Shown in pieces: positions 9,360-41,818 of a stretch of 64,000 bases of DNA. Position 1 is the stretch's first letter. Each line of letters starts with the position of its first letter. The DNA is taken from assembly GCF_030297175.1 (NCBI RefSeq), contig NZ_AP028070.1, forward strand, positions 2,728,001 to 2,792,000. Reading direction: 5' to 3'. Below the pieces are notes generated by a model. The model made no database searches. It was not told the origin of the DNA and saw only the letters and a list, made by a program, of their open reading frames with translations. A program made the translations under genes and the position numbers. Origin of the DNA: Marinobacter sp. LA51. GTDB taxonomy: Bacteria > Pseudomonadota > Gammaproteobacteria > Pseudomonadales > Oleiphilaceae.

Positions 9360-9383
9360 GCAACCTTAGTGGAGTTGGTTGGG

Positions 9384-10205
9384 ATGGAATCTTTACCTCA
9401 TTGCGAAACACTGCTGCTGGAAAAACAGGGCCCGACCCTGGTGGTCACCATCAATCGTCCGGATGTTCGCAACGCCATGAGCCTGCAAATGGTGGCCGAG
9501 CTGTCCGCGGTGTTTTCCCAGATCGAATCAGACTCGAGCATCCGCGCCGCAGTTATTCGCGGCACCGGTGGCCATTTCTGCGCCGGTGGCGACATTACAG
9601 ACATGGCCGGCGCCCGCAACCAGCCCGCGGCTGAGGGCGAGGCCGATCCGTTTTACCGGCTGAACCGGGCCTTTGGCCAGATGATCCAGCAGGTCAACGA
9701 ATCCTCCAAGGTGGTTATTGCGGTCACCGAAGGCGCTGTCATGGGCGGCGGATTCGGACTCGCCTGCGTCTCCGATGTAGCCATCGCCGGCCCTACTGCC
9801 ACCTTCGGCATGCCGGAAACCTCACTCGGAATAATCCCGGCCCAGATAGCCCCGTTTGTGGTGGAACGCATCGGCCTCACCCAGGCCCGGCGCCTGGCAC
9901 TGCTTGGTTTACGGATTAATGCGGAAGAAGCCTGCACCCTGGGCATCGTTCATCAGGCAGCCAATTCAGATGAGCAACTGGAGGAAATGCTCAGCCATAC
10001 CCTGGACCGAGTCCAATTGTGCGCGCCAGGAGCGACGACTGAGACCAAAGCCCTCCTGCACCGGGTTGGCCACGAAAATATGAGCGGCCTGCTCGACGAC
10101 GCCGCCGAGAAATTTGCCAAGGCTATCCGGGGTAGTGAGGGTGCCGAGGGCACTGTCGCATTCATGCAGAAAAGACCACCTAAATGGGCCACGGAATCCG
10201 AATGA
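9384..10205 (+). CDS. atuE: Isohexenylglutaconyl-CoA hydratase
   Basis: Crotonase-family protein of 273 residues from the ATG at 9384. I prefer this over a GTG at 9369 because GGAG stands nine bases ahead of the ATG. Oxyanion-hole segments are H-F-C-A-G-G-D-I near residue 57 and M-G-G-G-F-G near 120; the M-P-E-T-S-L-G-I-I-P segment holds a probable catalytic glutamate. It should hydrate the carboxylation product of AtuC/AtuF. Unlike the tightly packed upstream genes, it is followed by 151 bases carrying a structured palindromic element before atuF. Confidence 0.87.
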   Translation: MESLPHCETLLLEKQGPTLVVTINRPDVRNAMSLQMVAELSAVFSQIESDSSIRAAVIRGTGGHFCAGGDITDMAGARNQPAAEGEADPFYRLNRAFGQMIQQVNESSKVVIAVTEGAVMGGGFGLACVSDVAIAGPTATFGMPETSLGIIPAQIAPFVVERIGLTQARRLALLGLRINAEEACTLGIVHQAANSDEQLEEMLSHTLDRVQLCAPGATTETKALLHRVGHENMSGLLDDAAEKFAKAIRGSEGAEGTVAFMQKRPPKWATESE

Positions 10206-10212
10206 TCGCGGA

Positions 10213-10326
10213 GCGGGTGGGCAGGAAGGTCGGGCCAGAAAATGTTGAAGGCCAAGGATGGCCGGAAACAAGCGCACATGGATGTGCTCGTAGCGGTTTT
10301 CTGGCCCGACCTTTCTGCCCGCCCGC
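10213..10326 (+). ncRNA. TwoAYGGAY-like palindromic RNA element, copy A (between atuE and atuF)
   Basis: A 30-bp outer stem pairs 10213-10242 with 10297-10326; its only two non-Watson-Crick pairs are G-T wobbles. It encloses a 54-base core. In the core, GGCC/GGCC closes the hexaloop AAGGAT (10254-10259), and TGTT/AACA can extend that hairpin; a second hairpin GCACATGGATGTGC (10274-10287) has loop ATGGAT. The core matches copy B (15057-15164) at 50 of 54 positions while the outer arms differ. The layout agrees with the TwoAYGGAY candidate RNA class as I remember it. The loops carry the A-N-GGA signature bound by CsrA/RsmA. It would be part of the atu transcript. Confidence 0.7.
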
Positions 10327-10356: not shown

Positions 10357-12327
10357 ATGCTGACCAAACTGCTGATCGCCAACCGAGGTGAAATCGCCGT
10401 CCGCGTCATCCGCACCGCCAGGGATCTGGGCTACCGCACCGTGGCCGTCTATTCCGAGGCAGACGCCAACGCCCTGCACGTGCACGAAGCCGACGAGGCA
10501 GTCTGCATTGGCCCCGCACAGGTAACGGCCTCCTACCTCAATGCCGAAGCCATTCTCGAAGCCGCCCACAAGACCGGTGCCGACTGCATTCACCCCGGCT
10601 ACGGCTTCCTGTCTGAGAACTCTAGTTTTGCCAACGCCTGCAAAGCCGCCGGATTGGTATTCGTCGGCCCACCGTCGGATGCTATCGAATTGATGGGCAG
10701 CAAGCGCCGCTCCAAACTGGCCATGCAAGACGCCGGCGTACCGGTAGTGCCCGGCTACGAGGGCAACAACGCCACCGACGAAGAACTGATCGCTGCGGCC
10801 GCCGACATCGGCTACCCACTCATGATCAAAGCCTCTGCCGGCGGCGGTGGCCGCGGCATGCGGCTGGTGAATGCCGAACCGGAACTGGCCGATAACATCA
10901 AACGGGCCCGCTCCGAAGCCAAGCAGGCCTTCGGCGACGACGAACTGATACTCGAAAAAGCCGTACTCGAACCCCGGCATGTTGAAATCCAGGTGTTCGC
11001 CGACAGTCATGGCAACGCCGTGTACCTGGGCGAGCGGGACTGCTCGGTACAACGCCGACACCAGAAAGTGGTCGAAGAGGCCCCTTCCCCATTTGTGACA
11101 CCCGAACTTCGTTCAGCCATGGGCGAAGCCGCCGTCAAGGCAGCGCTGGCTTGTGGTTACGAGGGCGCAGGCACCGTCGAGTTTCTGGTGGACAAAGACC
11201 GTAATTTCTACTTCCTGGAAATGAACACCCGCCTGCAGGTGGAACACCCGGTCACCGAACTGATCACCGGCCAGGACCTGGTGGCCTGGCAACTGGCTGT
11301 GGCCGAAGGCCGCCCGCTGCCACTGGCCCAGCACGAGATCGAGCTGAACGGCCACGCCATCGAAGTCCGACTGTACGCCGAAGACCCAGCCAACGGTTTT
11401 ACACCCCAGACCGGCCCCCTGCTGAAATTCCAACCGGCCGAGGGCGAAGGCATTCGCTTCGACACCGGGGTCCGTTCCGGCGATACGGTCACGCCTCACT
11501 ATGATCCGATGCTGGCCAAAGTCATCGCCTGGGGCCAGACCCGGGACGATGCCCGCCGGCGCCTGATCCGGGCCCTGGAAGACACGGTCATATTTGGCGT
11601 CACCACCAACCGTTACTTCCTTAGCCGCATCCTTGCCGACGACACCTTTGGCGCCGGTGAAGCCACCACCGCCTTCTTGCAGCAAGCATTCCGGGACGAT
11701 CCGTCACTTCAGCCCCAAGAACCGTCACTGCGGGAACTGGCCCTGGCCGCCGGCATACTCGACCATAGCCAAACGGGCCAAAGCGCCTGGAGCAATGCAC
11801 CGGCGACCCGCACCCCCATCACCCTTGAACTGGATGGTAAAAACCAGGAGCTGCTGGTGTCCCGGGCGGGTAACCGGCTGAACGTCGCCATTGGCGACAA
11901 CCAGTACGAACTGGTCATCGAAGCACTCGAAAGCGACTCCCTGTGCACGATCGACAACGGCGTCCGTCAAAGGTGCCAATATCACCGCGACGGCGATTCC
12001 CTATATTTCCAGGCCTTCGGCCAGACATGGTCGGTGCGTGATGTGACCCACCAGCCTCCCGCAGGCAGCCTGGGAGCCGGCAGTGGCCGGGTGCAGGCAT
12101 CCATGGACGGCGCCATCATCGAAGTGCTGGCCAGGTCCGGGCAAAGAGTCAGTCAGGGGGATACACTGGTTATTCTCGAGGCCATGAAAATGGAACATCC
12201 GGTCAAGGCCGACCGTGACGGTGTCGTCAGCCAAGTGCTGGCAGGTGCGGGCGACCAGGTTAAACGCAATCAGCTACTGGTCGAGATAACGACTGAAGAA
12301 ACAGCCCAACAGGAGGCCGAGTCATGA
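10357..12327 (+). CDS. atuF: Geranyl-CoA carboxylase alpha (biotin carboxylase/carrier) subunit
   Basis: 656 residues: biotin carboxylase N-domain (1-115), ATP-grasp domain with the glycine-rich A-S-A-G-G-G-G-R-G loop near residue 160, carboxylase C-domain (about 330-440), a linker and a C-terminal biotinyl domain. The biotin attachment lysine is in E-A-M-K-M-E-H near 610. Works with AtuC to carboxylate geranyl-CoA using bicarbonate and ATP. Its own ribosome site (GGAAGAG) lies after the palindromic element, so it can be translated independently of the structured leader. The stop overlaps the atuG start. Confidence 0.92.
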   Translation: MLTKLLIANRGEIAVRVIRTARDLGYRTVAVYSEADANALHVHEADEAVCIGPAQVTASYLNAEAILEAAHKTGADCIHPGYGFLSENSSFANACKAAGLVFVGPPSDAIELMGSKRRSKLAMQDAGVPVVPGYEGNNATDEELIAAAADIGYPLMIKASAGGGGRGMRLVNAEPELADNIKRARSEAKQAFGDDELILEKAVLEPRHVEIQVFADSHGNAVYLGERDCSVQRRHQKVVEEAPSPFVTPELRSAMGEAAVKAALACGYEGAGTVEFLVDKDRNFYFLEMNTRLQVEHPVTELITGQDLVAWQLAVAEGRPLPLAQHEIELNGHAIEVRLYAEDPANGFTPQTGPLLKFQPAEGEGIRFDTGVRSGDTVTPHYDPMLAKVIAWGQTRDDARRRLIRALEDTVIFGVTTNRYFLSRILADDTFGAGEATTAFLQQAFRDDPSLQPQEPSLRELALAAGILDHSQTGQSAWSNAPATRTPITLELDGKNQELLVSRAGNRLNVAIGDNQYELVIEALESDSLCTIDNGVRQRCQYHRDGDSLYFQAFGQTWSVRDVTHQPPAGSLGAGSGRVQASMDGAIIEVLARSGQRVSQGDTLVILEAMKMEHPVKADRDGVVSQVLAGAGDQVKRNQLLVEITTEETAQQEAES

Positions 12328-14990: not shown

Positions 14991-15056
14991 CGATTAGTTT
15001 GGGGACTTGTCTCGGGCTCTAGCCTTTCAGGATTGGAATAACCGTGAAGTTCGAAA

Positions 15057-15164
15057 GGCAGAGAGGGCCAATCCTCCCAAAAATGTCGTAGGCCAAGGAT
15101 GGCCGGAGACAAGCGCACATGGACGTGCTCGTAGCGGTTTTTGGGAGGATTGGCCCTCTCTGCC
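15057..15164 (+). ncRNA. TwoAYGGAY-like palindromic RNA element, copy B (downstream of atuH)
   Basis: A perfect 27-bp outer stem (15057-15083 with 15138-15164) encloses a 54-base core. The core has GGCC/GGCC around AAGGAT (15095-15100), extended by TGTC/GACA, and GCAC/GTGC around ATGGAC (15119-15124). Relative to copy A, the TGTC/GACA pair replaces TGTT/AACA, a compensated T-A to C-G change. The outer arms share little with copy A beyond a GGCAG start. It lies 67 bases after the atuH stop, in the convergent gap before the quinone reductase gene. No T run follows the outer stem, so it is not a standard terminator. Confidence 0.7.
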
Positions 15165-15209
15165 CCACCCCAAGCCATCCAGGCTAGGAGCGGGGGCAGA
15201 TCCAGAATA

Positions 15210-41585: not shown

Positions 41586-41699
41586 TGTGCTTCTCCTTTT
41601 GATGGCACACAGAGTGTCACAGCGACAAGGGTTAGAAAACCGGCATTTATGACATAATATTGGCCAATATCGCCATCGGAATCTGGAAGACGGTTCGCA

Positions 41700-41793
41700 G
41701 TGGGTAGAAGTATCCGGGACTCGCTGTGAATACGTCCCTGTACGCTTGTGTGCAGCATCCATGCTGCACACAGTCCCGGATACTTCTACCCAC
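41700..41793 (-). ncRNA. TwoAYGGAY-like palindromic RNA element, copy C (upstream of acyl-CoA dehydrogenase)
   Basis: A perfect 22-bp outer stem joins 41700-41721 with 41772-41793, with three more pairs beyond one mismatch. Read on the minus strand, the 50-base core has GTGTGCAGC/GCTGCACAC closing loop ATGGAT (plus 41757-41762), then AAGC, then GTAC/GTAT closing loop AGGGAC (plus 41734-41739), then TCACAGCG. Copies A and B have AAGC, GCAC/GTGC, loop ATGGAY and TCGTAGCG at the same places, so the second hairpin shows C-G to T-A covariation. The outer stem and first hairpin stem are unrelated to A and B. It begins about 115 bases upstream of the dehydrogenase start. Confidence 0.65.
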
Positions 41794-41818
41794 CGCGGCC
41801 CTGGCTCGGGAGTTTGCT

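Follow-up and report, generated by a model that had tools for sequence, protein, structure and literature searches.

Judging from the sequences of its relatives, copy B, the inverted repeat at 15057..15164 of the window (by which we mean the whole 64-kb stretch of Marinobacter sp. LA51 DNA that was analysed), is a member of a dispersed structured-RNA family, the lineage-wide Marinobacter form of the TwoAYGGAY-type RNAs. The pattern of mismatches in the arms of the copies shows that the strand carrying the GGA loops is the one selected to fold. The folded form is a long outer stem, whose sequence is largely free, bearing two ANGGAY-loop hairpins at its tip. A G-U bias specific to one strand, the resemblance to TwoAYGGAY, the divergent pairing of neighbouring copies and the likeness of the double changes to single mutational events go beyond the initial annotation of this DNA, which was made from the sequence alone.

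Copy B lies on the plus strand and consists of two arms of 27 nt, at 15057..15083 and 15138..15164, which are complementary at 27 of 27 positions and enclose a core of 54 nt (15084..15137), exactly as annotated. Hairpin 1 of the core (15084..15111, drawn from the fold and from pair counts in 99 copies) has TGTC...GACA outer pairs, a purine-rich internal loop, a GGCC stem and the loop AAGGAT at 15095..15100; hairpin 2 (15115..15128, drawn from the pair counts) has a GCAC/GTGC stem and the loop ATGGAC at 15119..15124. The folding energy of the RNA of copy B is -74.4 kcal/mol, against -39.9 +/- 4.1 kcal/mol for 200 dinucleotide shuffles (z -8.35). The motif AGGCTAGG follows downstream on the same strand, at 15181..15188. 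Copy A (10213..10326, plus strand) lies between a crotonase-family gene (9369..10205) and a biotin carboxylase-type gene (10357..12327). Its arms (10213..10242 and 10297..10326) are complementary at 28 of 30 positions, are also separated by 54 nt (core 10243..10296) and are unrelated in sequence to those of copy B. The two cores are identical at 50 of 54 positions and differ at offsets 3 (T/C), 5 (A/T), 24 (A/G) and 40 (T/C). As had been claimed, offsets 3 and 24 pair with each other, TGTT/AACA becoming TGTC/GACA, and a third difference, at offset 40, falls on the Y position of loop 2. A third, diverged member was recognised on the minus strand at 41696..41797 (arms 41696..41721 and 41772..41797) from its inverted repeat and from its match to R1, a covariance model which we built from Marinobacter copies only; its loops are ATGGAT and AGGGAC. 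It scores 82.9 bits (E 1.2e-18) and is absent from the training set of R1, to which copy B, with 111.9 bits, belongs. The genes around copies A and B, named after their best NCBIfam matches, some of which are under their own cut-offs, belong to the crotonase/enoyl-CoA hydratase family, the biotin carboxylase type, the SDR oxidoreductases, the long-chain acyl-CoA synthetases and the PIG3-type quinone oxidoreductases. This is compatible with the acyclic-terpene (atu) cluster named in the initial annotation.

In the genome to which the window belongs (G000, 3.77 Mb, one contig), a BLAST search with a 62-nt core found 24 places at E<=0.001 and one additional real copy at E 0.017 (L025), while five weaker places look like chance matches or fragments. 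In the 25 places scanned, the arms are 54 nt apart in 22 cases and 57 nt apart in two, the last one carrying an insert, and the arm sequences differ from place to place except for a loosely shared inner end. R1 has 47 matches in G000 and from 3 to at least 105 per genome in the 25 Marinobacter genomes sampled, the top counts being lower bounds because at most 106 candidates per genome were scored. Among 13 genomes of other genera of the order, 4 have any R1 match. A search of the named genomes for an exact pattern returned at least 116 stretches, all labelled Marinobacter except one; this exception (L171, contig NZGD01000124.1) is labelled as a Rhodopirellula MAG, carries a Marinobacter core and is probably mis-binned. 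The whole collection, 229 loci and the window (1.5 Mb), gave 358 core hits, which reduce to 283 distinct copies with flanks. The arms are separated by exactly 54 nt in 246 of these 283, arms of at least 14 bp are present in 264, and the stem is 24-30 bp long in 235 of the 264.

These copies were gathered by the similarity of their cores, which means that their arms were not selected for pairing. We retained 319 hits with a core of exactly 54 nt and 60 nt of flanks and reduced them to 127 non-redundant copies. In these, a copy's own arms pair on average at 21.9 of 27 positions, against 10.9 (at most 11.5 in 200 shuffles) when the right arms are swapped between copies. The expectation that arms would be copy-specific and always self-complementary was therefore largely borne out, as 22 or more of the 27 positions pair in the standard register in 101 of the 127 copies, and failed only in its "always", since a few broken copies exist. 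Of the other 26, 19 regain complementary arms when shifts of the register are allowed: in 11 the arms are 52-58 nt apart, 7 belong to a longer variant (130-159 nt) and one has lost hairpin 1. The remaining seven do not; four of them are damaged but real (L139, L046, L060 and L164) and three are weak or chance hits. We also ran a covariation test on 99 aligned copies, as pair counts in place of R-scape. In the copies 96.5% of the cells are paired, against 68.2% when shuffled; doubly changed cells number 1054 against 295, and the covariation score is 0.738 against 0.178. Sliding the partners by 1-3 columns makes the pairing fall to 33-49%.

The mismatches that persist in the arms tell which strand is concerned. 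Read on the strand of the core, the 2727 arm pairs of 101 non-redundant copies contain 52 G-T and 43 T-G mismatches against 2 A-C and no C-A; the others include 52 purine-purine mismatches and one T-T. Before removal of the redundancy the figures were 146 of the G-T type and 11 of the A-C type. Every G-T on one strand would be an A-C on the opposite strand, and hence only the strand carrying the GGA loops is under selection for pairing. The same bias is found in other families, in loci recovered with the Rfam model of TwoAYGGAY, RF01731 (34 against 5, counted without deduplication in the 30 loci, out of 40, whose arms reach 14 bp). Arm pairing, covariation counts and strand-specific mismatches support the initial claim that the pattern points to selection for an RNA structure and not to a mere duplication.

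We then compared orthologous elements, using 208 copies whose arms pair at 20 or more of the 27 positions and which have flanks of 500 nt, a choice which makes the one-sided counts lean low. Comparison of the flanks gave 593 ortholog-like pairs in 42 groups. At 80-85% flank identity, 9.5 pairs of a 27-pair stem are changed on both sides and 1.1 on one side. For a comparison of rates, each element was used once, alignable outer flanks were needed and pairs with more than 13 double changes were omitted, which removed 1 of the 36 pairs at >=88% flank identity, 1 of the 70 at >=85% and 67 of the 541 at >=75% (one omitted pair had 19 double changes). At >=88% flank identity, 19 ortholog pairs show double changes at 64 of 513 arm pairs (12.5%) and changes at 201 of 1436 flank bases (14.0%), with transition to transversion ratios of 24:40 in the arms and 102:99 in the flanks. 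At >=85% (27 ortholog pairs), 107 of 729 arm pairs are doubly changed, and the ratios are 45:62 and 165:155. One must keep in mind that flanks picked for their alignability are biased towards conserved ones and that comparisons between species cannot show single events. If compensation proceeded stepwise through G-U, double changes would be expected to lag behind single ones and to be rich in transitions; neither is observed, so that copying by template switching fits. The available text of PMC8794818 describes replication template switching as a mechanism for copying one arm into the other.

Could template switching alone, perfecting palindromes devoid of any RNA function, account for these elements? 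In its favour are a described mechanism, double arm changes at about the single-site rate of the flanks and the lack of a transition bias. Template switching is blind to the strand, and equal numbers of G-T and A-C would then be expected where we found 95 and 2; it also leaves the invariant loops of the core unexplained. This reading appears largely refuted by the strand bias, and we regard it as very improbable. Template switching of the arms and selection at the RNA level seem rather to act both, the second producing the strand bias and the first the double changes at the rate of single ones. A "compensatory" change need not, then, mean two separately selected steps, as the double changes resemble single mutational events. 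The way in which RNA stems change on two sides is an old question, on which double changes at about the single-site rate bear here, and independent stems of about 27 bp, by the tens per genome and in many species, offer a natural data set on it.

In the core, where the initial annotation would have been refuted by differences at random, paired changes were seen at two outer pairs of hairpin 1 and not at the one between them. At ortholog sites (after the same omission of strongly changed pairs), core pair 3-24 had 31 two-sided changes and a single one-sided change, and core pair 1-26 had 23 two-sided and 3 one-sided; for core pair 2-25, the third outer pair, there were 3 two-sided against 22 one-sided changes. 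The latter pair is unpaired in 40 of 99 copies and is not supported as a real pair. Offsets 4-6 and 21-23, which face each other, are purine-rich and compatible with G.A pairs in many copies and form standard pairs in others. ANGGA is invariant in both loops of the 99 aligned copies and the linker AAGCG nearly so, and in G000 the two ANGGA are found at the expected spacing in 24 of the 25 places found by BLAST, the exception carrying an insert. This invariance is partly built in, for the core was the seed of every search and the 116 loci come from an exact pattern which includes loop 2.

Of 30 genomes, several of which have only 1-2 copies, 21 have G-C at core pair 1-26 in every copy sampled, including 22 of 22 copies in G000. 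In the other 9 genomes it is mostly T-G, C-G, G-G or another state. These genomes include G018, G021 and G013, which we take from indirect indications to be M. shengliensis, M. lipolyticus and M. litoralis respectively, as well as G005, M. nauticus and M. persicus. A fresh sample, overlapping in part with the earlier one, gave a pair other than G-C in 11 of 12 copies of G018, 7 of 8 of G021 and 0 of 3 of G022, and the switch extends to the orthologous sites of copies A and B. Moreover, identical cores with unrelated arms occur within one genome more often than expected by block shuffling of nine genomes, G000 being outside this test: there are 20 such pairs against 2.4 expected, a number reached by 0 of 1000 shuffles, 13 of the 20 coming from G018. 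The mean core identity within genomes, 44.6, is above the shuffled mean (43.6) and below the shuffled maximum (44.9). The switch and the identical cores could reflect a reader whose specificity has changed, or a spread or conversion of cores without their arms.

The identical cores with unrelated arms also speak for a mobile DNA element, of the REP or MITE kind or a substrate of single-stranded DNA transposition, whose core would spread and whose arms would be taken from the target or made upon insertion. The range of copy numbers within one genus and the clean absence of the element at some orthologous sites, for instance at the site of copy A in G016, point the same way. We consider it quite improbable nonetheless: sites are common to many species, in the 42 ortholog-like groups, the length of the stem is fairly uniform, the mean core identity within genomes falls inside the shuffled range, and a search of 72,556 plasmids and 50,697 phages gave no match to copy B. 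The G-U strand bias, too, needs selection on a folded strand, a requirement which a folded single-stranded DNA could by itself still satisfy.

As for their place in the genome, the elements are shown to lie mostly after genes, and close neighbours to form divergent pairs with about 90-260 nt between cores. The context was read for 97 non-redundant copies: 43 lie between convergent genes, 49 between co-directional ones and 5 in divergent intergenic regions. A further 14 copies were set aside as being inside ORFs (taken as artefacts of our simple gene caller), and 16 lacked sufficient flank or genes to either side. Among the gaps of 150-1500 bp in the same loci, which were chosen for holding elements, an element is present in 42 of the 46 convergent ones, in 52 of the 98 co-directional ones and in 6 of the 27 divergent ones, which carry promoters. 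When two copies are less than 500 bp apart they are divergent (minus then plus) in 67 of 68 cases, overlapping loci included, and their cores are separated by 90-257 nt; the same orientation is seen for 20 of 21 neighbours less than 600 bp apart in nine genomes of other families.

At the site of copy A (site A), 11 of 24 relatives hold an element of the core type, identically oriented, whose arms are self-complementary and differ between species, though little between the closest relatives. Four others have a divergent pair of a sister type, one a deletion derivative and six none, and two are unreadable. The site of copy B (site B) holds a divergent pair in 12 of 24 relatives; G023 has one copy lacking its left arm, G017 has deletion derivatives, five relatives lack a full element and five are unreadable. 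One of those lacking it, G016, has a short hairpin without a core, for which we prefer a deletion remnant over a palindrome preceding insertion, given that the pair is present there in 12 relatives. At site B, G000 retains the plus member alone, and TCTAGCCT, at 15018..15025, may be what is left of the outer motif of a lost partner, which it resembles. The motif AGGCTAGG has 63 of its 80 occurrences in the 229 loci and the window at 40-49 nt past the end of a core on the same strand, a count in which loci overlap and many are orthologs of site B; there it flanks the divergent pairs on their outer sides. Another palindromic repeat, GTCGGATTA...TAATCCGAC, is found within the site-B region of several species (L093, L100, L102, L103 and L096). 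Deletion derivatives were seen in L100 (G017, sites A and B), L089 and L060 (site B of G023) and L103 (site B of G007), having lost the core and part of an arm, the inner hairpins, the left arm or hairpin 1. The longer variant has about 80 nt with further hairpins inside hairpin 2, at the same point (..CACATGG/GTGA.. to ..GCTCGTAGCG), and keeps its arms intact, 130-159 nt apart in the seven copies measured. It is carried at G000:C1:777300-777439 (L014, L027, L008), in L132, L140, L185, L035, L056 and L129 and also in L096 (site B of G021), and is either a site-specific insertion or a structural subtype.

The enrichment after genes and in convergent gaps, the divergent layout and the narrow range of stem lengths would all suit a transcribed 3'-end module, a stabiliser or terminator-like analogue of BIMEs, in which the long stem matters and the GGA loops serve another protein or merely form a cap; that loop 2 has lost its GGA in some families agrees with it. 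A stabiliser does not need invariant loops, however, and both ANGGA are invariant and AAGCG nearly so. We hold this explanation to be unlikely.

The two loops instead fit the published binding site of CsrA, on which the best reading that we can propose rests: the elements would be transcribed dual CsrA sites placed after genes. According to the available text of PMC7652899, the SELEX consensus of CsrA is RUACARGGAUGU with an ANGGAN loop, one dimer bridges two sites best when these are more than 18 nt apart, and a stem of very high stability may be unfavourable to CsrA. The sequence of hairpin 2 in copy B, ACAUGGACGU, is close to this consensus, and the GGAs of the two core loops are 21 nt apart, beyond the 18 nt wanted for two sites. 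Counting against the CsrA reading are the GC-only stem of hairpin 1 and, against a strict version of it, the absence of GGA from loop 2 in several other families. CsrA is encoded in G000, in 235 of 274 genomes of the class and in 22 of the 23 genomes with RF01731 matches; being nearly universal, its presence is uninformative as a correlate of the elements, and we dropped it. Small RNAs with promoters of their own seem less likely, a weak test for a sigma-70-like consensus upstream of 100 copies having given no enrichment (mean score 7.55 against 7.59 shuffled). The lack of a promoter signal favours elements carried in mRNAs over separate sRNA genes.

The mechanism that we propose is the following. 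The element would be transcribed within the 3' or intercistronic region of neighbouring mRNAs, its stem would present the two loops to one CsrA/RsmA dimer, and binding of CsrA would alter the fate of the carrier mRNA, dozens of copies together being able to titrate CsrA. Mutations of one arm would be copied into the other by replication template switching, and selection at the RNA level would remove the variants that break the stem. We regard this full explanation, a structured RNA family presenting sites to a CsrA dimer with template-switched arms under RNA selection, as probable, though by no means assured; the divergent pairs count against it, as one element of each is antisense to each convergent neighbour, and so does the survival of a few damaged copies. 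More tentatively, and with a probability that we put low, one may imagine in Marinobacter a distributed Csr layer, in which dozens to more than 100 nearly identical dual CsrA sites on the 3' regions of mRNAs would act collectively as a sponge coupled to transcription and individually as tags. Divergent pairs would then serve two convergent genes, and the elements would co-evolve genome-wide with one trans-acting reader, of which the species-wide switch of pair 1-26 is a possible sign.

The family is linked to RF01731 (168 positions, clan CL00106, gathering cut-off 43 bits), and copy B is not a formal member of it. The whole 64-kb window has no Rfam match at the gathering threshold. RF01731 did not find copy B at E<=10 or in the scan of G000; at E<=10 copy B matched eight microRNA hairpin models, which we take as chance matches due to the long stem, and weakly DUF3800-IV. 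Copy A matches RF01731 with 35.9 bits (E 8.3e-4), below the cut-off. In G000 the model has 25 places at E<0.6, of which 14 are BLAST core copies; one of the 11 outside that set is over the cut-off, with 43.4 bits. One of 14 control genomes has a match, under the cut-off, and the model matched 23 of the 274 genomes of the class (G000 included, under stricter filters), 13 of them over the cut-off. Conversely, R1 at E<=0.01 matches the same place in 9 of 40 RF01731 loci of other families, the rest being weak or absent.

With TwoAYGGAY the elements share two ANGGAY-loop hairpins on a long outer stem of unconserved sequence and, as in other families, their multiple copies and divergent pairs, a layout thus common to Marinobacter and other families. 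TwoAYGGAY is listed in PMC2864571 (2010). The available text of PMC4333381 proposes that these RNAs bind CsrA and describes a poorly conserved external stem in the Rfam model and tandem G-A in one stem; PMC11661157 calls them relatively unexplored in the part available. The shared architecture makes the copy-specific arms a property of a known family, striking here through the number of copies. In the aligned Marinobacter copies both loops keep their GGA, whereas elsewhere loop 2 is often without it, and just 16 of the 40 loci from outside Marinobacter show at least two ANGGA no further than 100 nt from the centre of the match. Copy numbers, obtained with different models, are 3 to at least 105 in Marinobacter (R1) and 1-30 in nine other genomes (RF01731). 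The accessible parts of PMC4333381, PMC2864571, PMC11701678, PMC7657543, PMC11661157 and PMC7652899 mention neither dispersed copies, nor divergent pairs, nor Marinobacter. The present copies show the family dispersed in high number, with its folding strand identified, a divergent layout found in other families too, a position after genes and loops whose signature fits CsrA, which makes the function of TwoAYGGAY directly testable in a culturable genus.

Finally, other known systems resemble these elements in part. Small RNAs of the CsrB/RsmZ type also have paired GGA hairpins, expected here as there to bind CsrA dimers, and differ in being encoded at a single locus where we find dozens of dispersed copies; in 25 Marinobacter genomes the RsmZ and RsmY models gave nothing over the cut-off, only sub-threshold hits as in control genomes. 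REP, BIME and REPIN elements prefer 3' regions. They are high-copy intergenic palindromes too, often in composite units of alternating orientation, according to the available text of PMC2817692 and PMC3116915. In our elements the arms are free, the centre is conserved and one folded strand is selected. The initial annotation had called this the opposite of a MITE or REP, and a conserved centre with variable arms was indeed found in 24 of the 25 G000 places and in the non-redundant set. The attC sites of integrons are also a folded single strand whose variable sequence is kept complementary; they conserve their ends and not their centre, whereas here it is the centre which is conserved.
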